Source: a virus. From it: a DNA stretch of 25,147 nucleotides. The stretch spans positions 1 through 25,147 of the IMG/VR virus record IMGVR_UViG_3300025133_000557. One strand, written 5' to 3'. A program made the position numbers and the translations under genes. Positions 1-24,945 of the stretch are shown in pieces. Each line of letters starts with the position of its first letter. Position 1 is the stretch's first letter. The notes beneath the pieces are model-generated. The model searched no databases. It had not been told where the DNA came from and worked only from the letters and a program-made list of their open reading frames with translations.

Positions 1-627
1 CTTGCTCAAAGCGTGCTTCATCATGTAGGCGAAGGCCTGCTTCGGGGGCATGCCTCCCGGAGGACCGCCGGCCGGAGGAGGTCCGCCACCAGCTGCCGGA
101 GCACCGGCGGGGGGAGCACCAGGAGGAGCCTGAGGCTCCTGACCGGGCGGGAAGGTGGGAGGAAGGTTAGGCTGCGGGGACTGCGCCGCCAGAGCCTGCT
201 CTTCCATCATGGCCTGCTCCTGGGCAGCCTGCGCCTGCGCCTCTGCCTCGGCCTGCTGTGCCTCTGCCTCGGCCTGCTGTGCGGCAGCCTGGGCCTCCGC
301 CTGCTGCTGCTCCTTGTCCTTGATCACCTTCATGGCGGCACCAACAGCCGCACCGATGTCCTCAGCAGCAGTGGTCGACGTACCGTCGCCACCTGCTCCA
401 GCCGGAGGACCCATGCCCGGAGGGGCAGGAGGAGCAGGCGGGGCACCAGGTGCTCCAGCGACGCCAGGCATGGGACCGCCCGGAGGGGGACCGCCCCCAT
501 CCATCATGGCCAACTTCTGCAGCTGCTCGAGGGACATGTGCCCGAGTCCGAGCTCACCGACCAGGCGATCTTCCTGGACAGAAGCTTCCTTGACCTGCGC
601 CCGGGAAAGGAGGAATTGGTCGAGCAT
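1..627 (-). CDS. Pro/Gly/Ala-rich virion protein, C-terminus cut off by window edge
   Basis: This is the 5' part (209 codons) of a gene that runs off the left end of the window. The ATG at 625-627 lies just beyond the TGA of the upstream 712-residue gene (629-631). The product begins MLDQFLLSRAQVKEAS, and residues 1-45 look helical. A low-complexity Pro/Gly/Ala stretch follows (roughly residues 45-80), then a Gln/Ala/Glu-rich segment that could be a coiled coil (about 100-140), then more Pro/Gly-rich sequence, ending in the window with PPKQAFAYMMKHALSK. It carries the Lys-x-Ala motif near the N-terminus (K13-E-A-S) and again at QKLA and KQAF. I do not recognise a family. Its position at the end of a head/virion operon suggests a structural or internal virion protein. 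Confidence 0.75.
   Translation of the reverse strand, partial: MLDQFLLSRAQVKEASVQEDRLVGELGLGHMSLEQLQKLAMMDGGGPPPGGPMPGVAGAPGAPPAPPAPPGMGPPAGAGGDGTSTTAAEDIGAAVGAAMKVIKDKEQQQAEAQAAAQQAEAEAQQAEAEAQAQAAQEQAMMEEQALAAQSPQPNLPPTFPPGQEPQAPPGAPPAGAPAAGGGPPPAGGPPGGMPPKQAFAYMMKHALSK
240..281. repeat. Two tandem copies of a 21-bp unit
   Basis: The 21-bp unit at 240-260 is repeated exactly at 261-281. It encodes a seven-residue Gln/Ala/Glu repeat within the partial gene on the minus strand. This is coding low complexity, most likely expanded by slippage. Confidence 0.8.
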
Positions 628-628
628 C

Positions 629-3290: not shown

Positions 3291-3691
3291 TATCCGATGG
3301 CCTCCACGACCGCTGCCTGATCTAGCTGCTCTAGGGCAGCGGTCACATCTACTCTACGTCGTCTGCCCGTGTACGGCGTACCTACAACTTCCTTGTAGAT
3401 GAGAGCCATCTCAGCGACCTTCAGCTCTGAGTAGTCTACGCGGACCTCTTCGACTACGGCTACGGCCTTCACAGGCGCCGCTTTGGGCCTACGCCCTTCC
3501 ACCACCCATGAAGGCAACTCGTCACCGGCAGGGACAGCCAGCAGTCCGCAGAGCCTCGGAGCTTTCTGCAGCTCTCGAGGCATCGGTGCGGGCAACACAA
3601 TGCTGCTTCCTGGAGGGATCTGGATGTGTCGGACTGCGATCGTCCTGGGGTGGCCGATCAGGTCAGACACGTTGTGGACGTCGTACAGCAT
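3290..3691 (-). CDS. Small hypothetical protein of the head operon
   Basis: The protein has 133 residues. The ATG at 3689-3691 overlaps the TGA of the upstream gene (TGATG). The N-terminal 50 residues look beta-rich (IAVRHIQIPPGSSIVLP), and an Ala/Val/Arg linker with several Pro follows. The C-terminal 50 residues contain a basic TGRRRRVDVT patch followed by a helix. No enzyme motif or membrane segment is visible. It is sandwiched by overlapping genes downstream of the capsid protein and is probably virion-related. I do not recognise it. Confidence 0.7.
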   Translation of the reverse strand: MLYDVHNVSDLIGHPRTIAVRHIQIPPGSSIVLPAPMPRELQKAPRLCGLLAVPAGDELPSWVVEGRRPKAAPVKAVAVVEEVRVDYSELKVAEMALIYKEVVGTPYTGRRRRVDVTAALEQLDQAAVVEAIG

Positions 3692-4338
3692 CAGCCCAGC
3701 AGCTCTTCTAGCCCCGCCAGATCCAAGTCGGCTCCATCGTAGAGCGCCTGACGAATCCTCCCCACCGTGACGGCCTTGGAGCTCCCAGCCCGAACCACGG
3801 GATCCACCAGCTGGCAGACGCCCTTGAGCTGGGCCATCGTGAGCTCGATGGTGATGGCGTTGATCAGTTCGTCTCGATCCTCAGAGACAGGGGGCTCCTC
3901 CTCGAGGGCCTCAGGCTCCGGCTCCTCGAGGGCCTCAGGCTCCGGCTCCTCGAGGGCCTCAGGCTCCGGCTCCGGCACCACCTCAGGGGCTGCTTCGGGC
4001 TCCGGCTCCGGCACCACCTCAGGGGCGGGAGGGACTGCCTCTACGATGCCTGAGATCTCTTGGGCCGCCTCTGCGAGGATAGTGTCCAGTGGTACGGACC
4101 GATCCGTCCCTTCGATGCAGAAGTAGATCAACCCCGACGTGTAGTAGGGGCGAAGCTTCGCCTCCTCTGCCTTGATCATCTGAGCGGTGCCGATGACACC
4201 GAGACGGTGACGAAGCGGCTGACCGAACACAACCAGCCTCTCGGCGGTACGCATGGCCTGGCTCCGTCTCTTCGCGGACATCGGAATGCGGACGTGTGCG
4301 GGGGCTCCCCCGGCGGTTAGGACGTGGTATCTGGTCAT
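3691..4338 (-). CDS. Protein with acidic Pro-Glu repeat linker, directly after MCP
   Basis: The open frame extends upstream into the capsid gene, but the convincing start is the ATG at 4336-4338, which has GGAGG close upstream (complement of 4344-4350). This gives 215 residues. Residues 1-95 form a globular part (MTRYHVLTAGG, then RPYYTSGLIYF). Residues about 100-150 are an acidic Pro-Glu-Ala repeat, and the last 60 residues form a helical domain. This two-domains-with-flexible-spacer plan is common in head-to-tail or surface-exposed proteins, but no family is recognised. A hairpin lies between it and the capsid gene, so expression may drop at this point. Confidence 0.75.
   Translation of the reverse strand: MTRYHVLTAGGAPAHVRIPMSAKRRSQAMRTAERLVVFGQPLRHRLGVIGTAQMIKAEEAKLRPYYTSGLIYFCIEGTDRSVPLDTILAEAAQEISGIVEAVPPAPEVVPEPEPEAAPEVVPEPEPEALEEPEPEALEEPEPEALEEEPPVSEDRDELINAITIELTMAQLKGVCQLVDPVVRAGSSKAVTVGRIRQALYDGADLDLAGLEELLG
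3898..3969. repeat. Three tandem copies of a 24-bp unit (Pro-Glu repeat)
   Basis: Identical 24-bp units lie at 3898-3921, 3922-3945 and 3946-3969. On the minus strand they encode three copies of an eight-residue PEPEALEE-type repeat. Nucleotide-level identity suggests recent expansion. Confidence 0.9.
3962..4026. repeat. Two copies of a 29-bp sequence, period 36 bp
   Basis: The sequence at 3962-3990 recurs exactly at 3998-4026. It encodes the duplicated EVVPEPEPEA element of the same acidic linker and adjoins the 24-bp repeat array. Confidence 0.85.
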
Positions 4339-4362
4339 GTATCTGCCTCCAAATGTGACTAA

Positions 4363-4392
4363 GCCCCCACTCTCCTGCCGGAGGGCGGGGGC
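4363..4392 (-). terminator. GC-rich hairpin after the major capsid gene
   Basis: An imperfect inverted repeat with 13-base arms (4363-4375 and 4380-4392) and a four-base loop lies 28 bases after the capsid stop codon. No U-tract follows. It may be a partial terminator or an mRNA 3'-end stabiliser for the capsid transcript rather than a full stop. Confidence 0.55.
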
Positions 4393-4420
4393 CCAGTCTA
4401 CCCACCGAAGTAGGAGTCTT

Positions 4421-5584
4421 CTAGAAGATGAAGACTTCGGGGAACACGCCGCCAGTGGCGATCTTGTTGTTCGTGATCTCGAGCGCGTCCTCGGCACTCG
4501 GGATACGCACACCGAAGCCGATATCCGTGGCACCGACCGTGATGGAGCCGGAGTAGAGCTCGAGCTTGGCGACGGCCGAGATGTTGCCGAAGCCCATCCC
4601 GATGTCTTCCCAGCTCTGCCACATGATCCGGTTGGCCACCTTGTCGATGTAGAACTTGGTGTCGTTCAGGATGTAGAAGTACCCGAAGAACTCCGGCGCG
4701 GCGAAGATGTAGACGTTGCCGTCGCGCAGGATGTTGTTCTTGATCGTGCGGATGACCTTCATCCCCATGACCTGCGAGTACTTGTAGCCGTCGACCACGG
4801 TCTCCGACTGCACCTGCGAACCCATGTCCTCCGTGGTCCAGGTCAGGATGTCCGACCAGTCGCTCTCCGTGATCAGCATCCGCTCGGCCTGCAGCCGCTT
4901 CTGGATGAGGATCTTGAAGAGGTTGACGAAGTCAGGACGCTGCACCGCACGAACCACGAAGTCGTCAGCAGCGGCGGCCAGGGCCAGGATGCCCTTGACC
5001 TTGCCACCACGGAGAAGACCCGTAGCTGCATCGACGTCGAGGCCACCCAGGGCGACACCGGCGTTGACGTTGGTGCGGTTGAAGGCGACGGCGAGACCAC
5101 CGTTGACCTCCGTCTGCATGAACTCGACCATCGACTCGAGGTGGATCGTGAACTCGCGGTCCTCGATCTCCTGGATGTCCTTGCCCGAGTTGTCCTCGAT
5201 CACCTTGGTGATCGGCATGCGGTAGGCCAGCAGCTCCTGCTCCACCTTCTCGAACTTCTCGCTCGAGATTGTGAAGAAGGCGATGGCGAATCGCGGGGCG
5301 TCGATGTAGCGAGCCTCGGGCTCGCCACGGAAGCCCATGCTCATCGCACGGCTCTGCGGCTCGACCTCTTCGATGCGGATCAGGGTGTCGTGGTTGAGAG
5401 ACACCTGGCAGTCGGAGGGATCGATCGAGCGAGCGTTCATCACCTTGCGGCAATACGCTTCCTCTCGAAGGTGGTCACGGATGAACTCGCCTCCGTAGGC
5501 GGCCAGCTTGGTGCGGCCCTCGGAAGTTCCAGCCTCCTCGAAGAAGGTTTCGTTCATCACTCTGGATGCGGCGCTGTCGTACAT
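4421..5584 (-). CDS. Major capsid protein
   Basis: The protein has 387 residues, a typical length for an HK97-fold capsid subunit. It is assigned by composition and order. The C-terminal half shows the usual pattern of phage coat proteins: a helix near LFKILIQKRLQAERMLI, a strand-rich stretch with IFAAPEFFGYFYILND, and an ending with alternating strands and Gly turns. There are no membrane or enzymatic motifs. The start has a near-ideal Shine-Dalgarno (AAAGGAG, complement of 5591-5597) six bases upstream. The codons almost all end in G or C, more so than in most neighbours, consistent with very high expression. It has a TKLAAY element at residues 25-30, where a cleavable N-terminal segment could lie. 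A hairpin follows the gene and a decoration-like gene precedes it. Confidence 0.85.
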   Translation of the reverse strand: MYDSAASRVMNETFFEEAGTSEGRTKLAAYGGEFIRDHLREEAYCRKVMNARSIDPSDCQVSLNHDTLIRIEEVEPQSRAMSMGFRGEPEARYIDAPRFAIAFFTISSEKFEKVEQELLAYRMPITKVIEDNSGKDIQEIEDREFTIHLESMVEFMQTEVNGGLAVAFNRTNVNAGVALGGLDVDAATGLLRGGKVKGILALAAAADDFVVRAVQRPDFVNLFKILIQKRLQAERMLITESDWSDILTWTTEDMGSQVQSETVVDGYKYSQVMGMKVIRTIKNNILRDGNVYIFAAPEFFGYFYILNDTKFYIDKVANRIMWQSWEDIGMGFGNISAVAKLELYSGSITVGATDIGFGVRIPSAEDALEITNNKIATGGVFPEVFIF

Positions 5585-6221: not shown

Positions 6222-6584
6222 CTACTCGTCTACATCTCGGGTGAGCAAGAACTCACCCAATCTGCTGGTTCGGCGACCGGAAGGGGAGTGATCGACGACC
6301 GAAGCCAACTTCACACCACCACCGGCCACTAGGTCAACTGCCTTCTCATAGGCAGCCATCTCACTTGGCGGGAGTTCTGCTAGGTGGGCAACCTTCTCTT
6401 CGAAGGTGAGCTCACCATGCATGTTCTTCTCTTCCAGGGCGTGTGCGATCTTCTCGCACCGCTCCTTGCTCTCGTAGGCGGCAACCTTCTCCCGGAGGAT
6501 CCGGTTCTCCGCTGCCTGCTTGCGGACCGCCTGCCCGGCCTGACGGAGGACAGTGGCTGCCTGCATGCCGCTGATCTTGTTCAT
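6222..6584 (-). CDS. Small helical Lys-x-Ala protein, possible scaffold or internal protein
   Basis: The protein has 120 residues. The ATG at 6582-6584 has AGGAG embedded at the end of the upstream gene. Residues 1-70 are predicted helical and heptad-like (VLRQAGQAVRKQAAENRILR onward), so a short coiled coil is likely. The sequence is dominated by Lys-x-Ala elements (RKQAA, EKIA, EKVA, VKLAS). It lies two genes upstream of the capsid gene, where scaffold or internal head proteins often sit. I do not recognise a named family. A scaffold role is a guess. Confidence 0.7.
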   Translation of the reverse strand: MNKISGMQAATVLRQAGQAVRKQAAENRILREKVAAYESKERCEKIAHALEEKNMHGELTFEEKVAHLAELPPSEMAAYEKAVDLVAGGGVKLASVVDHSPSGRRTSRLGEFLLTRDVDE

Positions 6585-6593
6585 GGCGTACTC

Positions 6594-8102
6594 CTAGTAG
6601 CCGGGGATGGAGGGAGTGATGCTGGAACCGGAGTTCGGCATCCCTGTCATCGATGACGAGCCCTGCATCCGCTCCCCGTTCGCACGAGCAGCATCCTGTA
6701 GGGACTCCCGGAAGGCGGACTCGCGCTCTAGGCGGCGATCATCCAGAGACTTGTCTTCGGTCTGGAAGCCGCCCCGGTCGAGAGAGGCCTGCTTCTCGGC
6801 GGGGTTTGCTGCCTGATGGATGCCTGCAAGTCCTCCCACAACAGGAGCTGCAACCATCCCGGCGCCCCCTGCCAGGGCGCGGGCCAGGTTGAGCCGCTGA
6901 AGCTCTCCCTGTGCGCCTAGACTGATGCCGCTCCGGGCCAAGAGACCGGCACCTGCACCCATGCCTCCTCCCACCAAAGCTCCCGCTGCCGCACCCCGTA
7001 GAGCGGCGGCCCCGCGGTTCTCTCCGTGGGGGGCCGCCAGAGCTCCACCAGCTCCACCTAGGGCACCGCCCACCCCGCCACCAAGAAGGCCGGCACGCGC
7101 CGCAGCTTGGAGGTAGGACGACTCCTTCACTGATCCGGGTTGAACCGACCCCCTCAGAGCACGATCCACAAGCTCCTTGCGGGCTAGGGAAGCGAGCTTG
7201 CTGACCTCCGTGTGCGAGAGGTTCTTCTGGAGGACGTCGTCCGATCCCCTGTCCAGGATCGGGGCGCTCAGCACCTTGCCGACCTCCCTCTTCACGAACT
7301 TGGTCTTGGCGTCACGCTTGTTGTAGTTGATCGCAGCCCGGTTCGAGCCGATAACGGAGGGGGACGGCTGCTTCGGGACGTTCTCGCCTGCCTGGCTAGC
7401 GCCGGACGGGTTTCCCAGGGGGGCAGCGTTCCGCTTGCCGGTGATCTTGGCCTTCGCGCCCTCTCCCCTGGAGCTGGGGGAGAACTCGGCCTGCTTGCGA
7501 AGGGCACGTCCCATCGCGAAGGCAGACTTCACCGAAGAGTCTCGGATCGGGCCTCGCTCCGGGTAGGCACCGCCGCCACCGGGAACGTCGTTCAGGTCGT
7601 TGCTCATCAGACCGGGAGCAGTGTGCTCGGAGCTGGCCGGGTTGTTGGTGCTTCGGGGAATGGCGTATCCGCTAGCACCTGCCGTAGCCCGCTGCTGCGT
7701 ACCGCCACCACCAGGCCGGCGCTGGAGATCGTGCCTCATCGCGCTGCCGCCCATGCCGGGGGAGATCGAGGGCGCTTCACCAGTGTGCCTCGGGATCTCC
7801 TGCATCGCAGTGACGATCTTGAACTTGAGACGGGGATCAGACTCGACCTCTCCGACGATGTCGTAGGCCTGCTTGACTCTCTCGAGGCTCGTAGAGTCCT
7901 CGATCAGCTGCCCGCCTTCGATGCAGTCAGCCAGGTACTCCAGAGCGGAAGCGGTCTTTTCCGCCTCGTCGTTCGAGGATCGCTGATAGATCTCAGCAGG
8001 AGGGAGGTACGACGCCTCCTTCTCCATAGGCTCGTCGGCAAGCTTCTGGGCGGCAGTCTTCATCAGACCGGCGACCATTCTGTCGAGAGTGTGCTCGCTC
8101 AT
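6594..8102 (-). CDS. 502-residue virion protein with large glycine-zipper domain
   Basis: The ATG (8100-8102) overlaps the TAA of the preceding gene (TAATG), with GAGGA upstream. Residues 1-100 are helical and carry closely spaced Lys-x-Ala motifs (MKTAAQKLA, EKEAS, EKTAS, VKQA). Residues 105-270 are Gly/Ser/Pro/Asn-rich and probably disordered. Residues 332-431 are a striking Gly/Ala run with GGGVGGALGGAGGALAA-type repeats in about three hydrophobic blocks, resembling membrane-inserting glycine zippers. The C-terminus is again polar. No enzymatic motif is seen. It is a likely internal virion protein, perhaps ejected with DNA; this is inference from composition and context. Confidence 0.78.
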   Translation of the reverse strand: MSEHTLDRMVAGLMKTAAQKLADEPMEKEASYLPPAEIYQRSSNDEAEKTASALEYLADCIEGGQLIEDSTSLERVKQAYDIVGEVESDPRLKFKIVTAMQEIPRHTGEAPSISPGMGGSAMRHDLQRRPGGGGTQQRATAGASGYAIPRSTNNPASSEHTAPGLMSNDLNDVPGGGGAYPERGPIRDSSVKSAFAMGRALRKQAEFSPSSRGEGAKAKITGKRNAAPLGNPSGASQAGENVPKQPSPSVIGSNRAAINYNKRDAKTKFVKREVGKVLSAPILDRGSDDVLQKNLSHTEVSKLASLARKELVDRALRGSVQPGSVKESSYLQAAARAGLLGGGVGGALGGAGGALAAPHGENRGAAALRGAAAGALVGGGMGAGAGLLARSGISLGAQGELQRLNLARALAGGAGMVAAPVVGGLAGIHQAANPAEKQASLDRGGFQTEDKSLDDRRLERESAFRESLQDAARANGERMQGSSSMTGMPNSGSSITPSIPGY

Positions 8103-8356
8103 TACGTCCTCACTGCTGGGGGTGGGACAGTTTGCCCCGTGTTCAGTCCTAAGCTGCCTGTTACCGGACTCGAGTTGACCTTGGGGGCCTTCGAGAAGCC
8201 GGCTTTCTGAGAAGTCGTTTTCAGCCTACCGAGGCTGGGGGTCTTGGTCGACACGTTCATTAGGCCTACGTCAGGCTTCGGGACAGCCGGAGGAGCGGCT
8301 GACATAGCCAGCTTCTGGGTCTCAGCGAAGAATGACGAGAGCATCGTGTTCCACAT
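8102..8356 (-). CDS. Small hypothetical virion protein
   Basis: The protein has 84 residues from the ATG at 8354-8356. A longer frame from a GTG at 8410 exists but would run through the hairpin at 8373-8412, so the internal ATG is preferred. The N-terminus MWNTMLSSFFAETQKLAMSA is amphipathic and contains the Lys-Leu-Ala motif at K15. It resembles the N-termini of several neighbours, for example TFHSFVTELVKLSA in the gene at 24238-24945. The remainder is Pro/Ser/Thr/Lys-rich and probably unstructured. Its stop overlaps the next gene's start. The Shine-Dalgarno is weak. The function is unknown. Confidence 0.6.
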   Translation of the reverse strand: MWNTMLSSFFAETQKLAMSAAPPAVPKPDVGLMNVSTKTPSLGRLKTTSQKAGFSKAPKVNSSPVTGSLGLNTGQTVPPPAVRT

Positions 8357-8372
8357 GACCGGTCTTGTAGGG

Positions 8373-8412
8373 GGGTTGGGGGAGGCTCTCTTAGGGGGAG
8401 CCTCCCCCACCC
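8373..8412 (-). terminator. Strong hairpin after the 292-residue gene
   Basis: An inverted repeat has an uninterrupted 11-bp core, extended by a further GGG/CCC block across a single bulge. The arms are 8373-8388 and 8398-8412, with a nine-base loop. It begins eight bases beyond the TAG stop at 8420-8422. No clear U-tract follows, so it may attenuate transcription or protect the mRNA end rather than terminate fully. Confidence 0.65.
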
Positions 8413-8419: not shown

Positions 8420-9298
8420 CTAGATGTACCCGTGCTCTTCCAGGAGCTCGTACGCCATCTCGTCGATGGGGTCACCCTCGTAGAGGGGGTACTCGTACCC
8501 GGCTTCCGCGTGCTTGATGAAGTCGTTGGCCCGGACCTCCGCGAGGGTCCAGTAGGCGCCAGCGGTCTTCTTCGATCCCGCGTGGTAGGCACCGGCGGCG
8601 AGGCCACCAGCAGCCAGGGCACCAGCCGCACCCGGACCGTACTTGGCCAGACGGGGGTTCGCCTTCGCGAACTCACCGAGACGGAACTTGCCTCGCGCCA
8701 TCGAGCCACGCATCTTGTCGCCACGGGTCAGCTTGTCGACCTTCGAGCTCAGGTTGGCACGCATGTCGCCCTTGCCAACGCCGCTGCGCCGGAAGGAGCT
8801 GCGACGGCCAGTGGCACCGCGCGCCCTCGCACTGGAGACCGTCTCCCCTAGGGCCTCGAGCTGCTTCTTCTTCATGGCCGCGTTCCGACCCGCAGCACCA
8901 CGGCCCTGCTTCAGGCCCTTGGCGCCCGGAGCGTTGGACTCGGTCTTCCAGCGAGAACGGGCGAGCTTGTCCATCTCGGAGTCCATGGAGTGCGCCATGA
9001 CCTGACCGAGGAACTCGGCCTCCTTGAACTGCACGAAGGCCGTCTTCTCGGCATCGTCCAGGTAGTTGTAGTGCTCGACGTCGTCGTGGTCCCAGTTCGG
9101 GGGGAGGTCGTCGCCCTCGTCCTCGTCCATGTAGTAGTCGGCGAGGGCGTCGATCTCTTCGTCGTCGAGGGCTTCGGCGTCGATTCCGTCTTCGGCAGCA
9201 GCTGCCTTGAACAGGTGCCAGATCTCGGACTCGTCACCAGCGGCGGCGGTCTTCTCGGTGCCGTAGTAGTCGGCAAGCCAGGAGTTCACATCGGACAT
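8420..9298 (-). CDS. Acidic/basic bipartite virion protein, abundant-protein codon usage
   Basis: The protein has 292 residues. The ATG at 9296-9298 has a GGAGAG Shine-Dalgarno. Residues 1-90 are very acidic (many Asp/Glu around 35-80), the centre (about 110-215) is strongly basic with Arg/Lys/Gly, a short Gly/Ala zipper lies at about 224-242, and the acidic C-terminus ends EMAYELLEEHGYI. Lys-x-Ala elements occur at TEKTAAAG (K16), AEKTAFV, DKLA and KKTAG. Codons are almost entirely G/C-ending, like the capsid gene, and a strong hairpin follows. High expression just downstream of the prohead protease suggests an abundant internal or scaffold-like head protein. No named family is recognised. 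Confidence 0.75.
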   Translation of the reverse strand: MSDVNSWLADYYGTEKTAAAGDESEIWHLFKAAAAEDGIDAEALDDEEIDALADYYMDEDEGDDLPPNWDHDDVEHYNYLDDAEKTAFVQFKEAEFLGQVMAHSMDSEMDKLARSRWKTESNAPGAKGLKQGRGAAGRNAAMKKKQLEALGETVSSARARGATGRRSSFRRSGVGKGDMRANLSSKVDKLTRGDKMRGSMARGKFRLGEFAKANPRLAKYGPGAAGALAAGGLAAGAYHAGSKKTAGAYWTLAEVRANDFIKHAEAGYEYPLYEGDPIDEMAYELLEEHGYI

Positions 9299-15399: not shown

Positions 15400-15405
15400 C
15401 TAACG

Positions 15406-15434: not shown

Positions 15435-15454
15435 GGCAAGTAAGGCGGTATAAG
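15424..15454 (+). promoter_or_regulatory. Candidate promoter of the plus-strand trio
   Basis: CTGACA (15424-15429), 19 bases, then TATAAG (15449-15454), then six bases to the GTG at 15461. Its -35 overlaps by one base the -35 of the opposing terminase promoter, forming a small palindrome (CTGACAGTCAA), so one protein could control both directions. Confidence 0.55.
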
Positions 15455-15460
15455 GGCCAT

Positions 15461-15820: not shown

Positions 15821-16539
15821 TGTCCGTTCGGTCACATGCCCTAGATCGATATCGAGAACACTATCCAGGAGCTACGAAGAGGGACGTTCTGCAAGCAGCT
15901 ACCTACGGAGTCGATGTAACGATTCCGATGGGAAGAACCTTGGCTGGGCGCCCGGTGGATTACCCCGGGTGCGACAACTTGGACTGGTACATCCTCGGCC
16001 CTTCCAGGCGAGGGATGTTCGTAGCGCGGAGAGATACCGGAGACATCCGTACCTACCTCCGCTTTGGAATCTCGCAGCAACAGTTCGTTCTAGAGCATTG
16101 GCCGACAGGGGAACCTCTAAAGGAGGACCTCGAACCTCAACTTGTGCCCGTGCCGCAGCACACAGGCACCCGAGAATCTCTGGAGAAGCTGCATTACCCG
16201 GTACTGGGGGTGCCCCTACCGGAGCTGGCCATCTCCAGGGCGTTGCGCTTGAGTTTAGGCTTTGACAAAGCCTTCTATGTCCAAACTGCTTTTGCCAGGG
16301 CTCTTCTCGAGCACGAGCAGCTGTATGGACGCGGGCTTCTCCAGGCTGGAGAAGAGATCTGTCTGACGCTGGAAGAGCGACACGGATTGCGGCCAAAGAC
16401 GCGAGCAGTGCCCGTCAGCTTGGCCATCCGTCACGGAGTCATGCACCTGCAGGCCGTCGAGCCTGGAGAGTCGCCTACCCTGCGAGGAGTAGAACTTCCC
16501 GTGTGCGGGCACGAACTACGAAAGTTGATCGGAGAGTGA
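15799..16539 (+). CDS. Hypothetical protein upstream of RNase HII
   Basis: Three in-frame starts are possible: ATG 15787, ATG 15799 and ATG 15820. The last forms TAATG with the upstream stop. The ATG at 15799 has GGGAGA at proper distance and is chosen, giving 246 residues. The N-terminus (HALDRYREHYPGATKRDVLQ and following) is helical and basic. The middle has strands (WYILGPSRRGMFVARRDTGD), and the rest is mixed. It overlaps RNase HII by 37 bases if that gene starts at 16503. No catalytic motif is recognised. Co-transcription with a nucleic-acid enzyme hints at nucleic-acid metabolism only weakly. Confidence 0.7.
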   Translation: MEIAERLMSVRSHALDRYREHYPGATKRDVLQAATYGVDVTIPMGRTLAGRPVDYPGCDNLDWYILGPSRRGMFVARRDTGDIRTYLRFGISQQQFVLEHWPTGEPLKEDLEPQLVPVPQHTGTRESLEKLHYPVLGVPLPELAISRALRLSLGFDKAFYVQTAFARALLEHEQLYGRGLLQAGEEICLTLEERHGLRPKTRAVPVSLAIRHGVMHLQAVEPGESPTLRGVELPVCGHELRKLIGE

Positions 16540-17165
16540 AGAAGTACACGAAGCTGAGTGATCTGGATCCGCTGATGCAGGTGGCCGGGATCGACGAGGT
16601 GGGGGTCGGCCCCCTCGCCGGTCCCATGGTCGGCTGTGCAGCGGTGTTCAGAGCAGGACATGCTCCTATCCCGGGGGTCACGGACAGCAAGACGTTGTCC
16701 CACGCGAAGATCCTACAACTACGAGAGACAATTCTGGATGAGTGCGAGGACTTCGGCTTCGGCTGGGTCAGCGCTAAGGAGATCGACAAGATCGGACACG
16801 GCGAAGCTCGACGACAAGTGCTGTTACGGGCTTACGAGGATCTGAGTGTACGTCCTGGGTTCATCTACCTGGACGGCAACATGCATGTACCCGGCATCCC
16901 CAGGGCCGAGAAGTTGGCTAAAGCCGACTCCCTGATCTGGATCGTAGGAGCTGCGTCGATCCTGGCGAAGTTCGAACAGATCGAGTTCATGGAGAACGCT
17001 CACACGTCTTGGCCTAAGTACGGCTTCGATCAGCACCGTGGATACGGAACTGCCTACCACCATGCGGCGCTCGAGAAGTACGGGTCCTGCCCGATTCATC
17101 GAAGGAGCGTCAAGACGATCAGGAACTTGAAGCCGAAGAGAAGGCGCTCTAGGTGGGCGCCGTGA
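16503..17165 (+). CDS. rnhB: Ribonuclease HII
   Basis: Cleaves RNA in RNA-DNA hybrids, for example primers or misinserted ribonucleotides. The 220 residues cover the whole family: AGIDEVGVGPLAGP (catalytic D31, E32), a TDSKTLS motif, LDGNM (third acidic residue), ADSLIWIVGAASILAK (fourth acidic residue D142, with the AASI-AK helix), YGFDQHRGYGT, and the C-terminal SCPIHRRSV. All four acidic residues are kept. The Gly-Arg-Gly signature that senses the ribonucleotide-DNA junction reads Gly-Val-Gly here (residues 34-36). The start is either GTG 16503, with GAGGAG 13 bases away, or GTG 16536 overlapping the upstream TGA; the latter would shorten it by 11 residues. The gene ends at a bidirectional hairpin. 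Confidence 0.93.
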   Translation: MRARTTKVDRRVKKYTKLSDLDPLMQVAGIDEVGVGPLAGPMVGCAAVFRAGHAPIPGVTDSKTLSHAKILQLRETILDECEDFGFGWVSAKEIDKIGHGEARRQVLLRAYEDLSVRPGFIYLDGNMHVPGIPRAEKLAKADSLIWIVGAASILAKFEQIEFMENAHTSWPKYGFDQHRGYGTAYHHAALEKYGSCPIHRRSVKTIRNLKPKRRRSRWAP

Positions 17166-17636: not shown

Positions 17637-18511
17637 GCTCCCTCCGCCTTCCCGGAGCCGCTGTAGTTGCCTTCACCGGCCAGCTGCCTGAGCTCGGGCA
17701 TGCCGTCCTCCTCATCGACCTCCATGATGAACCGCTCGAACTGCTCTGCGGCTCCCGCAGTCACAGCACCGTGGTCCTTGAGGGAGTCGGATACTCCTCG
17801 GATCTCCCGAGAAAGCTCGGCCAGCATACGTACAGACGAGCCATCCGTCGGCTGCGTCTCCGCCTCAATGTAGCGGAAGAAGAGGGACTGCTGGATGTGC
17901 TGAAGCATCCGTGCGGTGGAGATGGTCGTTCTCAGACCTAGACGATGGAGAGCGAGATTAGATCCGCCCTGAACAACGAGAGCTCTCTGATCTCGGTTCC
18001 CCAACCACTCGACCCACTCCTGCACCGGCATGCGATCAGGGTTGAAGAAGTAGTGTCTGAATGCCTGGATCGTAGCGATGTCCACTACACCGGAGCCATG
18101 CTTGGACTCCAGGACGGTGGCCAACCTCCCTGCTGTGACGAATCCGAGAATGCCTATCTCGAGGTCATGACGGATTCGAGGAGCTGCCAGCCACCCTAGG
18201 GCTCGAGAAGCTGCCTCCTCAGAGACGTGTAGCTCCGAGATCTGCAGGCCCTTCCAGTACAGCCGGTTCTTGGGGTCGCTCTTGTTGGAAGGGAGGTAGA
18301 CCTTGGGGCGGTTGCGGGCTGACCTGACCAGGTCCATCTCCCCAGCCAGACTGTCGGTGTCTACCGGCAGCAGAGAGAACCCGTTCAGGTGCTTGTGAAC
18401 CAGGTCAGGGCCGTAGCCCTCCCCCTCCCCAAGGCTAAGCAGGTACCGAATGAAGAACCTGGACGGGTGCTTCTCTACGATGATCCCGTCTTGCGCTCCC
18501 AAGTCCCTCAT
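17633..18511 (-). CDS. Hypothetical structural-operon protein
   Basis: Start chosen as ATG 18509-18511, which forms TGATG with the upstream stop; a TTG one codon earlier is also open. The product has 292 residues. It is a mixed alpha/beta protein with RFFIRYLLSLGEGEGYGPDL near the N-terminus, a helical central region (VDIATIQAFRHYFFNPDRMP) and an acidic C-terminus ending in a Gly/Ser tail. No membrane segment and no Lys-x-Ala enrichment, unlike the adjacent 759-residue protein. It is coupled to that gene and to the downstream one. The function is unassigned. Confidence 0.72.
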   Translation of the reverse strand: MRDLGAQDGIIVEKHPSRFFIRYLLSLGEGEGYGPDLVHKHLNGFSLLPVDTDSLAGEMDLVRSARNRPKVYLPSNKSDPKNRLYWKGLQISELHVSEEAASRALGWLAAPRIRHDLEIGILGFVTAGRLATVLESKHGSGVVDIATIQAFRHYFFNPDRMPVQEWVEWLGNRDQRALVVQGGSNLALHRLGLRTTISTARMLQHIQQSLFFRYIEAETQPTDGSSVRMLAELSREIRGVSDSLKDHGAVTAGAAEQFERFIMEVDEEDGMPELRQLAGEGNYSGSGKAEGA

Positions 18512-20790
18512 CAAGCCACCTGAGGCGCCTCGGCGTTCAAGCCTGTCTGCGCCAGAATCTTGAGCTGCTGGACCGTCTCTTCCAGAGCGAAGAGCGATCT
18601 CCGAACCGCGCCCTCCGAGACGGGGCTGAGCCCCACCCTAGCAGCGAAGAGGATGTCACCGAGCTTGGTGACCGCTTCCTCGAGCTCCGGCAAGTAGCCG
18701 ATGTACATCTGCACGTTCTCAGGACGCAGGAAGTTCAGGCCGAGGATCTTGTCCACGGTGTCCGGATCGTCAATCTCCAGAGCTTCCTTCACCAGGCAGA
18801 CTCGGGTAGCGAATAGGTCCGGGAACATCGTACCGACCTGAGCCAGCGCCTCCTTGATCCTGCCTCCTACCTCGCCTGCCATGGTGATGGGGCGGATGGG
18901 GCGGAAGGTAACGGGGCCGTGTCGCTGACACCACGCCAGCTTCTTGAGTGCGTAGCCTGGCTCGACGCCCATCGCTCCCAGCAGGAACAGGGCATCTGCC
19001 TCCTTGACCTGCTTGTGCGACATCGGGCCGAAGTCCAGGAGCTGAGGCCCTCGGAGCGTGTACTGCCCAGAGCTGTCCCCGACCACCTCGACGTAGTTCC
19101 TGGCGAGGTTGGCCCTCTTCTCGATGGTGCGGGGATTGTCCCCCACCTTCGCCATCTTCTCTCCGACGGGGCAGAAGCGGAAGTGCGAGGGGACCGCGAA
19201 CCGGTCCTCGGCGAGCTTTGTGGGGGAGTGAATCCCCTTCACGATCTCGAGAGAGGCGGTCTTGCCCAGGTCAGACCGAACGTAGACTTCAGTACGGCCT
19301 TCGATGTCTCCCATACCCGTCACCGTGAAGGGGATGGTGGCCGAAGCCGTCTTGGGATCCACCAGGAACCCTCGACCACGCATCTGGGCCGAGTGGGCGT
19401 AGGTGTCTTCGATGTTGGCACTGATCTGAGCAGCACCTGCGATCTTCTGCTGCAGGCAGTACCCGCCAGCGATCACATGGGCCATCTTGGTGCCTAGGAC
19501 AGTGCCGTCCAGGTCCATCACACGGGTGAACACCCCTGCGAGCTTGGTCCTCTGGCCGCTGGGATCCCACACCGACCACATGCCGGGCTCGTTCACGATA
19601 GTGGCGGTCTTCTCGAAGGGGTCGTCCGTCACCAGAGGGTCGCGGACGACAGTGATGGCCTTGCCAGAGGCCATCTTCATGACGTCTTCTCCTGCCACAT
19701 TCCGAGCTCTCTCGCTAGAGACGTGCTCGATGATGGGCCGGAAGGCGTGGGCCGAGGCAGCCTTCATCACGAAGCCGCCGTCAGCCTTGCGAGCGATCTG
19801 AACCACCGTCGGCTCGATCTCCCCTAGAGGGTCCGCCGAAGCCAGCTTCTCTTGGGCCTCGGGGTTCGACAGAGCGCCGAGCAGGTACCTGACCGGAGCA
19901 TGGCGATCTACGTGCCACGCCACAGCCTCATCATCTAGTGCATTGGCCAGCTTGGTCTTGTCGGCCGGGTTGACGAACGCGTTGGCGAGGGACTCGCACA
20001 GGAACGCCTTCTTCTGCGTCAGACCGGGCCTCCATCCTGGGATAGGAGTGCGCTGCTTCAGTGGGGCCTTGCCTTTCTGGCGGGCCTTTACCCTCTTTGC
20101 AGCAGCTGCAGTCTCGGGAGTCATCCGAAGACCTGCGGCCTTCTTCCGCAGCTCCCTCTCCAGCTTCTTCTCTACTGCCTCTCGAACGTCCTTGTTGGCG
20201 GCTACCCCACCACCGCCAGCAGTGCCCAGAACCCACGGGTTCTTGATCGCGTCCTTCGCAGCCAGGAACCCCGCCCTCCGGAAAGCAGCCTGCTTCAGCG
20301 CACCGGGTCCGCCCCCTGTACCCATGCCCGCAGTACCGTGGGACGGCGGGTACATGTCCTTGGCGATGGAAGCGTCCGGTGGGGCCTTGGCGGCGATGTC
20401 GAACATCTCGGTCGAGTGCAGAGCCTCTTCCACCCGCTTCTGAGTCAGTGGGTAGACGGTGTTCTCCCTCATGAAGAGATCGAACGGCAGCAGCTGCCAG
20501 TCCTTGATGATCACCGGCACACGCAAGTAGGGAACCGGACGAGGGCCTGCCTGCTCCTGCAGACTTCTCTCCGTCGGCACCTTCGCTGCTATGAAGCCGA
20601 AGCCGTAACCCTGCGATGCATCCACCTTCGTGACGTGCACAGAGAGCTCGTAGTTGGCGATGTACGGAACCTGCTGCACGAGGGCCTGGAGGATCACCTC
20701 CGGCCAACGGTCTACTGCTCCCGTCATCTTGGTGAGAGGAACAGCGACCTTCTCGAATCGCAAGATCTTCGGCTGTTCGAAGAGGTCCAT
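18511..20790 (-). CDS. Large structural protein, 759 residues, dense Lys-x-Ala motif
   Basis: The ATG at 20788-20790 has AGGAGA upstream. It is a large alpha/beta protein without enzyme motifs. Residues 1-115 look folded and strand-rich (ELSVHVTKVDASQGYGFGFI, VPVIIKDWQLLPFDLFMREN). Residues 150-270 are Gly-rich, then basic. Residues 280-640 appear as repeated strand-containing blocks separated by Lys-x-Ala elements. The C-terminus (660-750) is helical. I count 23 Lys-x-Ala tripeptides, for example QKKAF, EKLAS, MKMAS, PKTAS, GKTAS and VKEA. It lies between the baseplate spike and two small genes, so a baseplate, tail or internal virion component is likely. It does not look like a portal. No named family is recognised. 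Confidence 0.78.
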   Translation of the reverse strand: MDLFEQPKILRFEKVAVPLTKMTGAVDRWPEVILQALVQQVPYIANYELSVHVTKVDASQGYGFGFIAAKVPTERSLQEQAGPRPVPYLRVPVIIKDWQLLPFDLFMRENTVYPLTQKRVEEALHSTEMFDIAAKAPPDASIAKDMYPPSHGTAGMGTGGGPGALKQAAFRRAGFLAAKDAIKNPWVLGTAGGGGVAANKDVREAVEKKLERELRKKAAGLRMTPETAAAAKRVKARQKGKAPLKQRTPIPGWRPGLTQKKAFLCESLANAFVNPADKTKLANALDDEAVAWHVDRHAPVRYLLGALSNPEAQEKLASADPLGEIEPTVVQIARKADGGFVMKAASAHAFRPIIEHVSSERARNVAGEDVMKMASGKAITVVRDPLVTDDPFEKTATIVNEPGMWSVWDPSGQRTKLAGVFTRVMDLDGTVLGTKMAHVIAGGYCLQQKIAGAAQISANIEDTYAHSAQMRGRGFLVDPKTASATIPFTVTGMGDIEGRTEVYVRSDLGKTASLEIVKGIHSPTKLAEDRFAVPSHFRFCPVGEKMAKVGDNPRTIEKRANLARNYVEVVGDSSGQYTLRGPQLLDFGPMSHKQVKEADALFLLGAMGVEPGYALKKLAWCQRHGPVTFRPIRPITMAGEVGGRIKEALAQVGTMFPDLFATRVCLVKEALEIDDPDTVDKILGLNFLRPENVQMYIGYLPELEEAVTKLGDILFAARVGLSPVSEGAVRRSLFALEETVQQLKILAQTGLNAEAPQVA

Positions 20791-20798: not shown

Positions 20799-21944
20799 CT
20801 ACCCCACCGATACCTTGGTGGACAAGGGTGAGTTTGCCTCAACTACTTGCTCTAGGGCTATAACTCCCGCCTTCAGCGCTGCCGCGCCTGCAGGGGAACC
20901 GTCTACGAGCTTCAGTAGCTGCATGAGAGCGGTGAAGTACCCCATGAAGGTATCACCTTTGACGACCTTCTCTCCGCCACCGCCCAGCTTGAGCTCTCCT
21001 AGGATGCCCGTCGAAGTTTCGATTAGCGCGGCTAGTGCGACTCCGCCACCGCCTAGATGAATGATCGGAGCCTTCACTACTACAGACTTCTTGGAAGTAA
21101 GGGTGAGGGTGTCTAGAGACTTGACGTCCGCCGTACCCATCCGGGCCTCGATCGCCACATTCCCCTCCTCCGAAAGCACGGAGTAGTCCCCCTTCACCTC
21201 GGCGGACCACTTCCCTTCCACGTCCCAGAGCACGTCGCCATTCTTCTTGATCTGCAAGGAGACCTGCACAGATCTACCATCATCACCCTTGTCGAAGACC
21301 TCGAGTGACAGCGCCTTCTCTGTTTGGGCATGATCCCCCAGAGTCATCTCGGCGACCGGGTAAGGATCGTCAGCAAGCTCCTTAGCCAGCACCTTGTATC
21401 TCGTAGGTCGATCCCCTGTAGTGGTGCTAGCGGTTCTATCCACTTCCCAGGAGAGAGATCCTGCAAAGGTCTCCATCCCGTACGCCTCGCAAATGTCTCG
21501 AATCATGTTCCCTAGGGGGATGTAGATTCTCTGAGAGAGCGGAGTGGCCTGCACCTGCACGATGCCGCCTCTACGAATAGAGACAGAGTTCCTATCTCGC
21601 GTCCCCAGGTAGATGTCTCCAGGGTTCATAGTCCTGCGAGACGATCGGTACGTAGCTTCTGTGTCCGGAACGCCTCCGAAGCCTAGAATGAACGCCCTCG
21701 AGTCGATCTCATTCCCGTGACAGATCCAGACAGATGCCCCGACCTCCGGCATCACGTAGACCCCCTCCCCCTCGGCGTGATGGAGGTAGCCTGCCATCAC
21801 CGGGACATCCAACCACTTGCGGCGGGAGTGAGGAGTGCGGACATCGGCGGTGAAGTTGACCACATGGACGTCTGAGATAATCCCGCTCTCAACTTGGACA
21901 GGGCCGAACTTGCTCCTGGCCGCTCCTGGGGCCGACGAGATCAA
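20799..21944 (-). CDS. Baseplate spike / gpV-gp5-like protein
   Basis: This 381-residue protein would form the membrane-piercing spike under a contractile-type tail tube. Residues 50-95 read like the OB-fold of gpV/VgrG proteins (GVYVMPEVGASVWICHGN, then AFILGFGG). Residues 120-300 include strand-rich repeats (VSIRRGG, DVLWDVEGKWSAEVKGDY, VAIEARMG, TLTLTSKKSVVVKAP) typical of a triple beta-helix stalk. The C-terminus has HLGGGGVAL, KVVKGDTF and a helical tail. The start is a TTG (21942-21944) with AGGAG (complement of 21953-21957) eight bases upstream, overlapping the stop of the upstream gene. The contractile-tail inference rests mainly on this gene. Confidence 0.78.
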   Translation of the reverse strand: MISSAPGAARSKFGPVQVESGIISDVHVVNFTADVRTPHSRRKWLDVPVMAGYLHHAEGEGVYVMPEVGASVWICHGNEIDSRAFILGFGGVPDTEATYRSSRRTMNPGDIYLGTRDRNSVSIRRGGIVQVQATPLSQRIYIPLGNMIRDICEAYGMETFAGSLSWEVDRTASTTTGDRPTRYKVLAKELADDPYPVAEMTLGDHAQTEKALSLEVFDKGDDGRSVQVSLQIKKNGDVLWDVEGKWSAEVKGDYSVLSEEGNVAIEARMGTADVKSLDTLTLTSKKSVVVKAPIIHLGGGGVALAALIETSTGILGELKLGGGGEKVVKGDTFMGYFTALMQLLKLVDGSPAGAAALKAGVIALEQVVEANSPLSTKVSVG

Positions 21945-24238
21945 GTGTCGTACTCCTTACGAGACTTCATGATCGCTCTAATGGCCATGTCTGCCGAGTT
22001 CCGCATCACCTTCTTCTGGACCGCCAGCGATCTCCGCTTGAAGCGGGCCGGGTTAGCCAGTACTTGATCCACTGCTCCGGGAATCTTGTCCAAGCCGATG
22101 GCTGCAGGGTTCTTCACATGCTTCTCGCCGTACCGAGCCGTGTCCCGGGTCAGCCCTCCCTGCACGTCCAGCACGCTGCTATCCGGCGCGTAGTAGACAG
22201 CCGGCTTGCCGGATGCCTCGGTCTCTGCGTACGTAGTTCCGTGAGCACGAATCACGTTCAGGTCCGCCTCCTGCATCATCGCCGTCAGCGGAGCGTAGCC
22301 GTGAGGTCTGATTCGAGGATCCTTCTTAGCCATCCTCGTGAGCTTCTTCTGTAGGGCCTTGTTCTTGCCTGCAACGGCGTGAACTACTGCGTTAGGCGGC
22401 AAGCCGGACTGGAGCACTCTCTTAGTGATCTCATCCACCTCTAGGCCCAGCGTTCCTCCGCTCACCGTGACGTTGTAGTCCCTCTTGCTCATCAACTTGG
22501 AAGGTCTCTGCTTCTCGAGGACTCGAGGGTTGACGGCTAGGCCGGGCAACACCTTGCTCTCTCGGGGCTTCAGCACGTCCATCACGGCCTGCGTACCTAC
22601 ATGGATGCGAGGACTGACCTTGTCCCAGTCACGCACACCTACCGACTTCTCTGGGTCAGTGTGCATCACGTGGATCGGGTGCTGGACTCCAGCAAAGGGC
22701 ATCTGCAGGTGCGTCTTAGTCAGGACAATCGCCTGATCCGAGTTGTCATCCACCCACTTATTCAGCCTCTTCCGATCGAAGCCCGTGGTGTGGTGCTTCA
22801 AGTGGGTGATCCCGGACACTGCTCCAGCGTAGGCGGTAGGAAGCACCTTCCCTTCGTCCGCAGCATCCAGGAGCTTCCCATAGCTCTCGTAGTACTTCTC
22901 TACGCTAGCGGGATCTCCGAACTCTGTGTCGAAGTTGAGAACCTCTACGGGGATCTTCCTGCGCCTGGCCGCCTCTGCCAGGTTCTTGGCCTGAGCCATA
23001 TGGCCGCCACCCATGCCGTCCCCGACGGCTAGGATCTTGATCCCTCTAGGCTTGCCGGCAGTCTTCCCGAACATCGCCTTCATGACCGGGGTTTCGCTGT
23101 ACCGCTGAACCCTAGAAGATGTGATGACAGGTCTCTTGGCGACTAGGCGCTTGAGCTGTGCTCTGAATGCCTCGGGAGCGTGCTTGATCTGGCTCCGCAA
23201 AGTCTTTCCTGGAGCATGCATGTCCTCATGCACTAGCCAGGCCGGGCCCACCTTGTGGGCATGTAGCCGCCCAGCCCGGAAGGACTCGGAGCCTAGACGC
23301 TCCCCGGGCAGGCGAACGTGCCCACGAGTACCCCGAAACGCGTTGATCCTCTTGGTCAACTCTACTGTGTCAGGAACTGCGATCTGTGCGTGGGACCAGT
23401 CCGTCCTCGGAGCAGATCTGATCGCCCTGCGGAGAACTGCCTTTGCCTTCCCTGCATGGTCGGGGAGTTCGGTAAGAACAGGGATCTCCTTCTGCAGGAG
23501 GAAGTCCCTCTTACCGACGCGTACATGCTTGTACTCCTTACGAGACTCTCGCCTCTTGAGATGCTTTTCCCATCGGCGGTTCACACGAGGGCTGACCACG
23601 ACCCTGCCGGAAGACTCCTTCGTCATCTCAGGCTCTCTCCCCAGTACATGCCTCACCATGGCTAGCACCACAAGCTGCAACTCGTCACGAGTCATGTCAT
23701 CGAGATGCCGCTTCCCCGTGACGTCCTCAGAGACGTCCATGAACGCCTCGTCATCGTCCCAGGGGATGCGGAGTGCGTCCGCTATGGCATGAACCTGCTT
23801 CGGATCCAGCTGCTCGAAACCTCGGCCCCCATTGAATCCCTCGAGCCACTCCGCTACGTGCTTGGGCGTGCTGTACCTCGCCGACTTCCAAGAGTCTGGC
23901 GTCAGCGTGTGAGGTAGTCCGTTCTTCTCGCAGAAGTCGATCGTTCTGTGGCACCCGTACCGGTCACAGGCCCGCTCCAACACGATGGTCGGCCGGAAGT
24001 CCTGCACATACTCCTCGTCAGTACGGGCGTCGATCACGTGACCTAGATCGTGGAAGCCTGACCAGGCCATGTCCTGGAAGGAGACAGGCACGCCTCTACG
24101 AGACTCGGCCAAGAAGATGATCTTGTTCTTCTCGTCCTGAGCCGCGTAGCTCCGCATCTCTGGCAAGACTACAAGGGAGTACCTGTAGTCTTTCAGATCT
24201 GCTGTGAGTACATCTTCTAGTAGGTCTAGACGATCCAT
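21941..24238 (-). CDS. Chimeric protein: zincin-like N-terminus plus GT28/MGDG-synthase-like glycosyltransferase
   Basis: Start chosen as ATG 24236-24238 (TGATG with the upstream stop), giving 765 residues. Residues 1-170: FHDLGHVID (H63, H67) followed by LERACDRYG (E88) resembles an HExxH...E zincin with the catalytic Glu changed to Asp. Residues 290-345 contain a formal HExxH match, LVHEDMHAP (H337, E338, H341), of uncertain meaning. Residues 400-740 match the two-domain GT-B plan of MGDG synthase/MurG: ILAVGDGMGGGHMAQA (N-terminal GGGH), HVMHTDP, NVTVSGGTLGLE, AGKNKALQKKL, GYAPLTAMMQEADLNVIRAH and ETEASGKPAVYYAP (nucleotide-sugar site). No membrane segment. It lies in the virion operon directly upstream of the spike. 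The glycosyltransferase reading is good; the substrate is unknown. Confidence 0.8.
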   Translation of the reverse strand: MDRLDLLEDVLTADLKDYRYSLVVLPEMRSYAAQDEKNKIIFLAESRRGVPVSFQDMAWSGFHDLGHVIDARTDEEYVQDFRPTIVLERACDRYGCHRTIDFCEKNGLPHTLTPDSWKSARYSTPKHVAEWLEGFNGGRGFEQLDPKQVHAIADALRIPWDDDEAFMDVSEDVTGKRHLDDMTRDELQLVVLAMVRHVLGREPEMTKESSGRVVVSPRVNRRWEKHLKRRESRKEYKHVRVGKRDFLLQKEIPVLTELPDHAGKAKAVLRRAIRSAPRTDWSHAQIAVPDTVELTKRINAFRGTRGHVRLPGERLGSESFRAGRLHAHKVGPAWLVHEDMHAPGKTLRSQIKHAPEAFRAQLKRLVAKRPVITSSRVQRYSETPVMKAMFGKTAGKPRGIKILAVGDGMGGGHMAQAKNLAEAARRRKIPVEVLNFDTEFGDPASVEKYYESYGKLLDAADEGKVLPTAYAGAVSGITHLKHHTTGFDRKRLNKWVDDNSDQAIVLTKTHLQMPFAGVQHPIHVMHTDPEKSVGVRDWDKVSPRIHVGTQAVMDVLKPRESKVLPGLAVNPRVLEKQRPSKLMSKRDYNVTVSGGTLGLEVDEITKRVLQSGLPPNAVVHAVAGKNKALQKKLTRMAKKDPRIRPHGYAPLTAMMQEADLNVIRAHGTTYAETEASGKPAVYYAPDSSVLDVQGGLTRDTARYGEKHVKNPAAIGLDKIPGAVDQVLANPARFKRRSLAVQKKVMRNSADMAIRAIMKSRKEYDT
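21953..21957 (-). promoter_or_regulatory. Shine-Dalgarno that decides a TTG start
   Basis: AGGAG on the minus strand, eight bases upstream of TTG 21942-21944. No ATG or GTG lies near the N-terminus of the spike frame, so this site supports the rare TTG start. Confidence 0.7.
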
Positions 24239-24945
24239 CACCTGTTCCTGAACTCTTTCTCTACAGCACGACCCTTGTTGTACTGCACCAGCGCGCCTCC
24301 GCTCCCCACTACGCCCCCCAGCCCAAGCTGCGCTCTTGCCTTATTCAACGCCGCTTGAGCGGGAACGGTCATCTGCTGCAAGGCTGCCTGTTCCGAGGGG
24401 ATGGCCGAGAGCCTGGCTGACCCCGCAGCTGCCCGGACTTTGTCAACAGACAGCCCGTGCAATTTCCTCGATCCAAGAGCTGCTAGAGGAATTCTATCCG
24501 CAACAAACTCCAACGACTTTCTTTCCGCCGCAGAAGGCGCCCGGATCTTCCCCGTAGCTGCTGACCTGTTCAAAAACTTCACAGACTTGCCTGCGTGGTA
24601 CAGGCCCCTCAACGGTTCCGCCGAACCACGAGCACCGCCCCGTAGAGCTCCAAGTAGTTTGCCTCCCACCCCTCTGCCCGCTGCCGCACCTTGTCCCGCA
24701 CCGATCAAGCCGTATACGGCCGAGGGAACTACTGCAGCACCTCCCACAACTCCGCCCATGCCAGTAACCAGCTGCTTCTTTCGGTGCTCTGTCTCACTGA
24801 CTCGTGCCTGCTCAGCTGCTTGCCCGTACTGAGCAGTCCAGTTCCCGAAAGGATCTACTCCTCCAAGGAAGTCTTGTCCTAGGTTGCTGACGGCGGAGAG
24901 CTTTACGAGCTCAGTAACGAAGCTGTGGAACGTGGTTGAACGCAT
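24238..24945 (-). CDS. Glycine-zipper virion protein, 235 residues
   Basis: The ATG at 24943-24945 begins one base after the upstream TGA. The N-terminus (MRSTTFHSFVTELVKLSAV) is amphipathic with Lys-Leu-Ser-Ala at K15. It resembles the N-terminus of the 84-residue protein at 8102-8356. Residues 60-105 form a Gly/Ala/Val-rich hydrophobic stretch (GMGGVVGGAAVVPSAVYGLI and following). Another Gly-rich segment occurs near the C-terminus (LGLGGVVGSGGALVQY). The rest is basic and Ala-rich. No enzyme motif is seen. Likely an internal or membrane-active virion component. Confidence 0.72.
   Translation of the reverse strand: MRSTTFHSFVTELVKLSAVSNLGQDFLGGVDPFGNWTAQYGQAAEQARVSETEHRKKQLVTGMGGVVGGAAVVPSAVYGLIGAGQGAAAGRGVGGKLLGALRGGARGSAEPLRGLYHAGKSVKFLNRSAATGKIRAPSAAERKSLEFVADRIPLAALGSRKLHGLSVDKVRAAAGSARLSAIPSEQAALQQMTVPAQAALNKARAQLGLGGVVGSGGALVQYNKGRAVEKEFRNR

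Follow-up and report, generated by a model that had tools for sequence, protein, structure and literature searches.

A Lys-x-Ala motif in phage head proteins as the probable cleavage site of their own prohead protease

Introduction

Why do otherwise different proteins of one phage virion operon carry the same short Lys-x-Ala (K-x-A) element? The window analysed here is a single virus record of 25,147 bases (IMGVR_UViG_3300025133_000557), with a virion operon that lies largely on the minus strand. A sequence-only reading had reported the element near the N-termini of 13 virion-operon proteins and its absence from the terminase, the plus-strand genes, the spike and the decoration-like protein, and had guessed at a capsid-targeting or protease-recognition tag. 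We asked whether the element is real, where else it occurs and what might act on it.

Results

K-x-A enrichment in the window extends beyond N-termini

Strict K-[not P]-A occurs between residue 1 and about residue 32 in 11 of the 26 window proteins, against 4.13 expected from within-protein shuffles (P = 0.00075). These are 629 (K6), the capsid protein 4421 (K26), 6222 (K22), 6594 (K15), 8102 (K7), 8420 (K16), the protease 9364 (K29), 11267 (K9), 11794 (K11), 12030 (K31) and 18511 (K14). The looser K[LTEQMV][AS] lies near the N-termini of 12 proteins (2.34 expected). The reported N-terminal element thus stands above a composition-matched control, with amendments to single genes. That of gene 24238 is present as KLS, not K-x-A; the lysine of gene '1' is residue 37 from the first possible start (699), or K13 from an ATG at 627–625 immediately after the upstream stop; and QKLAM of gene 8102 is K33 from the first GTG, or K15 if the start is the ATG at 8356.

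The reported absences are borne out for the spike (20799) and the decoration-like protein (5609), which have no K-x-A over their full length, and not for the plus-strand gene 16503, whose KLS fits the loose pattern. The latter gene (16503–17165) is RNase HII-like by eye (IDEVGVGPLAGP); together with 12829, 15461 and 15787 it flanks the terminase gene on the plus strand inside the virion operon (12829–17165), and 12829–13659 (plus strand) has a weak excisionase/regulator match. A 766-residue protein at 21941–24241, without K-x-A enrichment, resembles a metalloprotease by eye in an N-terminal stretch (HDLGH) and weakly matches glycosyltransferase-28.

Counted over whole proteins, K-x-A reaches 23 copies in 18511 (6.0 expected), 11 in 12030 (3.3), 9 in 6594 (3.3), 8 in 9364 (2.5) and 5 in 6222 (1.3), and a scan of 400 gap-2 residue pairs ranks K.A as the most enriched in the window. 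The motif is real. In six to seven head-core families it is spread along the body, which rules out a purely N-terminal element.

In relatives, K-x-A enrichment lies in the head cassette

Because the window is too short for a whole-genome test, we turned to relatives; the capsid query gave 26 loci in IMG/VR, and the contigs examined reached 178 kb. Observed K-x-A exceeds expectation in the orthologue families of 18511 (108/28.0), 12030 (171/44.5), 6222 (96/31.4), 9364 (173/75.4), 8420 (160/76.4) and 6594 (253/135.6), and shows no enrichment in those of the terminase (17/21.0), the spike (9/12.5) and a tape-measure-like protein (52/58.6). These per-family counts take in near-identical contigs. 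With the closest contigs removed, the pooled core families of about 25 related contigs hold 796 K.A against 323 (z = 26.3), the first of 400 gap-2 pairs; M.K and L.K come next, being the P5–P3 portion of the same motif. For most relatives K.A is also the top pair among 2,000 spaced pairs.

Enrichment follows the head genes. Across five large contigs the head cassette has 2.0–2.9 times the expected K-x-A and all other proteins 0.73–1.12 times. The residues around 614 sites favour [MLFI] at −2, E at −1, [TVLIQ] at +1, S or A at +3 and A at +4, giving a full consensus of [MLFI]-E-K-[TVL]-A-[S/A]-A, and this extended motif is 10 times as dense in the head cassette as in the rest of the same genomes. 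A leave-one-out PSSM scored on a genome of 92 proteins found 47 matches against 7.2, with head-cassette proteins taking six of the top seven places. A few columns are fixed in the core families (for example, K31 of 12030 in 12 of 13), and many further sites are present in some relatives and absent from others, as expected for flexible proteins destined for cutting.

The same restriction to the head cassette is seen in two cultured phages, Salmonella phage Arash and Vibrio phage D69. D69 genes 268 (11/3.9), 270 (8/3.0), 271 (10/2.9) and 273 (6/1.5) are enriched, and the D69 tail genes tested (276–284) have one K-x-A in total. K.A is not enriched in the distant capsid relatives Motura and BcepSauron, which rules out its spread to all phage G-like capsid families, and only weakly so in mycobacteriophage Pleione. 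Lys/Ala-rich histone-like tails in relative G003 (27232 and 99303) give trivial K.A matches and were set aside. At L038:12840–15659 (G001 31840–34659) we observed a 939-residue protein with eight strong motif matches (0.17 expected) and an N-terminal LVKEAG; proteins at G004 114324 and G003 81671 appear related to it by eye and are likewise enriched.

Applying the same scan to T4 gp67, gp68, gp21, gp22, gp23 and gp24 as a positive control placed I.E second and L.E fifth of 2,000 pairs. This is the known gp21 specificity, so a prohead cleavage motif does leave a spaced-pair signature. The Glu-at-P1 criterion of a T4-type system fails in the window lineage, where the leading pair is K.A and not L/I.E.

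Sites bracket the protease domain, and the capsid site aligns with a cut bond of phage G

The head genes run in the order 12030, 11267, protease 9364, 8420, 6594, 6222 and capsid 4421, with a similar order in Arash and D69. The prohead protease (9364–11259, minus strand; 631 residues; PHROG head maturation protease, E = 4.6e-6) comprises a catalytic domain at about 34–254 and a long, scaffold-like C-terminal part, with the candidate catalytic residues H121/H122 and S178 invariant in the alignment. It is a homologue of phage G gp19 (hhalign E = 5e-23), and its counterpart in Arash is gp222. An AF2 model is ordered at about 34–254, and disorder is predicted at 1–33 and 256–286. K29-M-A31 (11167–11175, minus strand) lies ahead of the domain and K252-L-A254 (10498–10506, minus strand) at its end, and we predict these to be N- and C-terminal self-cuts. 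The first site is kept in 14 of 16 homologues within an otherwise gappy, variable N-terminal stretch; the second is found in all 16 and is retained by phage G gp19 as EKVAS. Over this family, K-x-A occurs 8 times inside the catalytic domain against 11.4 expected, and 94 times outside it against 33.0. In phage G, K.A is enriched in gp19 (8 versus 2.4) and also in gp14 and gp21. Foldseek gave weak matches of the protease model to T4 gp21 (5jbl; target TM 0.57, with E about 1; hhalign E = 0.32) and to the HCMV protease (E about 0.8). There is no significant sequence similarity between the window protease and gp21, and their likeness is suggestive only.

The major capsid protein (4421–5584, minus strand; 387 residues; PHROG major head protein, E = 3.4e-14) belongs to a family homologous to phage G gp27 (hhalign profile alignment, E = 1.6e-13 over 259 columns). 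Its lone N-terminal site, K26-L-A28 (5501–5509, minus strand), is kept as K26-x-A28 in 26 of 27 relatives, and A28 is invariant in 12 of 12 aligned sequences, including Arash, D69 and phage G. The 282-residue product of phage G gp27 has a mature form of 255 residues, defined by N-terminal sequencing (Hua et al. 2017, Table 1, PMC5646251); hence 27 residues are lost and the cut falls after A27. In an ungapped alignment this A27 (EEGRVALA/QAMA, the slash marking the bond) coincides with A28 of the window protein (SEGRTKLA/AYGG). The predicted scissile bond of the window capsid protein, with a putative propeptide of 28 N-terminal residues (TSEGRTKLA28/AYGG), is by this alignment equivalent to the bond cut in phage G; an actual cut is known for phage G only. 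In Arash the predicted bond follows the KEA that ends at residue 29 (VKEA/GAAMS). Ala at P1 is supported by homology to the sequenced phage G N-terminus. Lys at P3 rests on conservation alone, because phage G has Ala there (VALA). The longest ORF at 3691–4533 overlaps the capsid gene by 113 bases and probably starts further downstream; its product contains tandem EPEPEALEE-type repeats.

Could K-x-A instead be a docking motif that is never cut and by which the capsid N-arm and internal proteins all attach to one scaffold partner? Multiple copies per protein, conservation of position at a few columns, and a hydrophobic −2 with Glu at −1, which resemble a binding peptide, would all suit such a role. 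We consider it unlikely, since it leaves unexplained why the mature N-terminus of phage G lies right after the Ala, why the sites spare yet bracket the catalytic domain of the protease, and why K-x-A is so abundant in the protease itself. The distribution and conservation of the motif, its place at domain borders and its alignment to the cut bond of phage G are observations; from these we infer, with considerable confidence, that K-x-A is the cleavage site of the lineage's own prohead protease, cut after Ala. Cleavage itself has yet to be measured in a K-x-A phage.

Core proteins carry many sites and other head proteins one

All proteins of this group are encoded on the minus strand. The head-core protein at 12030–12920 is a homologue of Arash gp220 (hhalign E = 6.7e-31) and D69 gene 268. 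Core/scaffold-like proteins are encoded at 8420–9298 (seven K-x-A) and at 6594–8102, the latter mostly of low complexity and with MKTAA, EKEAS, EKTAS and VKQAY among its sites; a small core protein of 120 residues lies at 6222–6584. Richest in K-x-A is the family of the 759-residue head-cassette protein at 18511–20790, a relative of Arash gp218 (hhalign E = 3.9e-5). Although most of its length is conserved, it holds 10–23 sites, some in predicted strands or helices, with those at K14, K343 and K668 invariant in seven of seven members. AF2 (seven sequences) reached a mean pLDDT of 51 without a PDB fold match, and many of these sites might stay uncut if the protein is folded.

Other proteins have the site at the N-terminus. 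The protein at 11267–11794, a candidate cargo or minor head protein, has a lone IRKLA/G followed by a Gly/Ala-rich stretch; its homologues keep the N-terminal K-x-A in 15 of 20 cases, and the remainder of the protein has 19 against 32.4 expected. A small protein at 11794–12033 begins with FIKEA/SA (PSSM score 12.0). The 712-residue protein at 629–2767 has an N-terminal LSKLA/SH, Gly-zipper-like stretches (weak Gly-zipper Pfam match) and no K-x-A enrichment in its body by whole-protein or family counts. Both 629–2767 and 11267–11794 thus place Gly-zipper-like or Gly/Ala-rich sequence behind an N-terminal K-L-A, and are possibly membrane-active ejected proteins.

A common leader opens small, dissimilar proteins

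With the target genome excluded from its training, the PSSM highlighted small proteins that match close to the N-terminus. Their leader has the consensus AF-x-D-E-L-x-K-[IL]-A, also seen as AF(S/F)DEL-x-K-I-A. The pattern [FYL].[DEST]E[LMFI].K.[AGS] is met within the first 45 residues of 18 proteins from five contigs, against 0.15 in shuffled N-termini. The pattern was written after sight of these sequences, which makes the contrast to some extent post hoc; chance is nonetheless unlikely, as the remainder of the same proteomes shows the pattern at a far lower rate. Seven proteins of G003 open with variants of [AGS]FFDELEKI[AGS], and three adjacent genes of G004 open with AFSDELVKIAGG, AFSDELQKIAGG and AFRDEMTKLAQ. 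In the window, the protein at 24238–24945 (minus strand) begins with MRSTTFHSFVTELVKLS (24895–24945), a K-x-S version that fits the pattern as SFVTELVKLSA. The small protein at 8102–8410 (minus strand) opens, from its ATG at 8356, with the leader-type MWNTMLSSFFAETQKLAM, and the gene in its place opens with MRDAMLAGFFDELEKIGA in G003 and MELTMLRAMVDEMRKIAA in G004.

Behind the leader, the bodies are mutually dissimilar save one pair of positional orthologues, and several have orthologues in other phages that retain the leader. Among them are a homologue of sigma factors (Sigma70_r3, E = 1.9e-9) and a domain of pyrophosphatase fold (E = 3.6e-41), and some match glycine zippers weakly. The sigma-factor homologue, at L052:8529–9302 (G004 65529–66302) with leader FIEFADELDKEAAAG, is a candidate virion-delivered sigma factor. 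Its G001 orthologue opens with MDEDILHKLAAK; that of G003 lacks K-x-A, which makes the sigma factor a less certain cargo. A protein at L061:5047–6141 (G003 43047–44141) combines the leader with an AHELGHAAFG metallopeptidase-like motif by eye, without a Pfam match.

A common leader on dissimilar bodies is the layout of T4 internal proteins, in which the capsid-targeting sequence is the sole shared part (PMC3012670). By this analogy the leader somewhat more plausibly than not targets its protein into the prohead; the internal location of leader proteins is inferred. The guess of a targeting or protease-recognition tag gains support from the conservation, the phage G scissile bond, the spared protease domain, the T4 control and the common leader. 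It needs correcting in that K-x-A appears to serve mainly as a cleavage site repeated along head-core proteins, and as an N-terminal tag only in part, with targeting information probably in the upstream leader (AFxDELx) and K-x-A as the putative cut.

Leader and internal repeats might also be different elements, the former a signal for targeting or export that a host peptidase cleaves and the latter protease sites. Glycine-zipper-like stretches in some leader proteins leave room for membrane activity, and some leaders end in K-x-G or K-x-S. Against this, the K-[IL]-A core that closes the leader is common to the N-terminal sites of capsid and protease, and the leader has neither the basic start nor the long hydrophobic core typical of signal peptides; we regard such a split as very unlikely. 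That Lys/Ala-rich, amphipathic scaffold helices of low complexity yield K-x-A unaided is barely credible and is ruled out as a composition artefact, for although a number of the proteins have low-complexity stretches and abundant Ala, Lys and Glu, K.A still leads all spaced pairs under within-protein shuffles that preserve composition, is dense also in the 18511 family with its many predicted strands, and has its extended form concentrated in the head cassette of the same genomes.

Discussion

On the reading of K-x-A as a protease site, the product of 9364–11259 would recognize a core of P3 Lys and P1 Ala, extended to [MLFI]-E-K-[TVLIQ]-A before the bond and [S/A]-A after it. Once the prohead is complete, the protease would free itself at K29-x-A31 and K252-x-A254, take 28 residues off the capsid protein, and cut many sites in 12030, 8420, 6594, 6222 and its own non-catalytic parts, whereupon the core would exit. 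It would also trim short N-terminal leaders from proteins remaining in the head, leaders that would probably have targeted them there in T4-like fashion. We infer, and have not observed, that the 9364 protease is the cutter and acts after Ala, that most or all sites are used and used in the prohead, that the core is cut up and leaves, and that the leader targets.

The proposed system is like that of T4 gp21 in having a protease gene that adjoins core and capsid genes, many core cut sites and a capsid propeptide (both predicted here), short N-terminal leaders on unrelated proteins (here inferred to be internal), and a spaced-pair signature of the cut motif. It differs in that T4 cuts after Glu ([IL]-x-E), whereas P1 Ala and P3 Lys are predicted here, and in the leader sequence. 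We infer a system that works in a T4-like way with a different specificity. Herpesvirus assemblin (clan SH), whose fold may belong to the same broad class, cleaves scaffold with Ala at P1 and Ser at P1′; it differs in having few sites and no Lys specificity at P3, and the HCMV protease is only a weak fold match. The phiKZ-type proteases, such as SPN3US gp245, are self-cleaving, make multiple cuts and remove N-terminal propeptides from ejected head proteins, with Glu at P1 (AxE, SxE) and propeptides usually of more than 100 residues (PMC5694885). Multiple cuts, N-terminal propeptides and self-cleavage, all of them predicted here, are shared features; the P1 residue differs, as do the leaders of the window lineage, which are about 10–30 residues long.

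Phage G has a homologous capsid protein and protease, a 27-residue capsid propeptide ending in Ala, and K.A-enriched gp19, gp14 and gp21, and by homology the window head module belongs with it. It differs in a capsid cut site without Lys, and we found no description of gp19 specificity in the literature searched. Phage P1 DarB has an N-terminal signal for uptake of an ejected protein into the head (PMC9024508); the leader proposed here would be alike in this, and the DarB signal differs in being described for a single cargo system. We found no earlier description of K-x-A as a prohead cleavage motif, in a search whose coverage left out most subscription journals and preprints.

The proteases of T4, phiKZ and SPN3US cut after Glu; if our reading is true, T4-style maturation and targeting here runs on Lys/Ala specificity, and this system would range from phage G to Arash-like phages and many uncultured large phages. 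From the motif one can list, in testable form, which sites would be cut, which proteins form the core and which cargo is probably injected, the candidate virion-delivered sigma factor among it; this is useful in genomes where the function of nearly every gene is unknown, and the cultured relatives Salmonella phage Arash and Vibrio phage D69 make testing simple. A wider proposal, for which we judge the case evenly balanced, is a genome-wide address code, in which one leader destines unrelated proteins to be packaged in the head, freed by the Lys/Ala-specific protease and injected along with the DNA; its set would include the sigma-factor homologue, the pyrophosphatase-fold protein and the glycine-zipper-like proteins. 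If this code is true, the cargo of uncultured phages would be readable from sequence.
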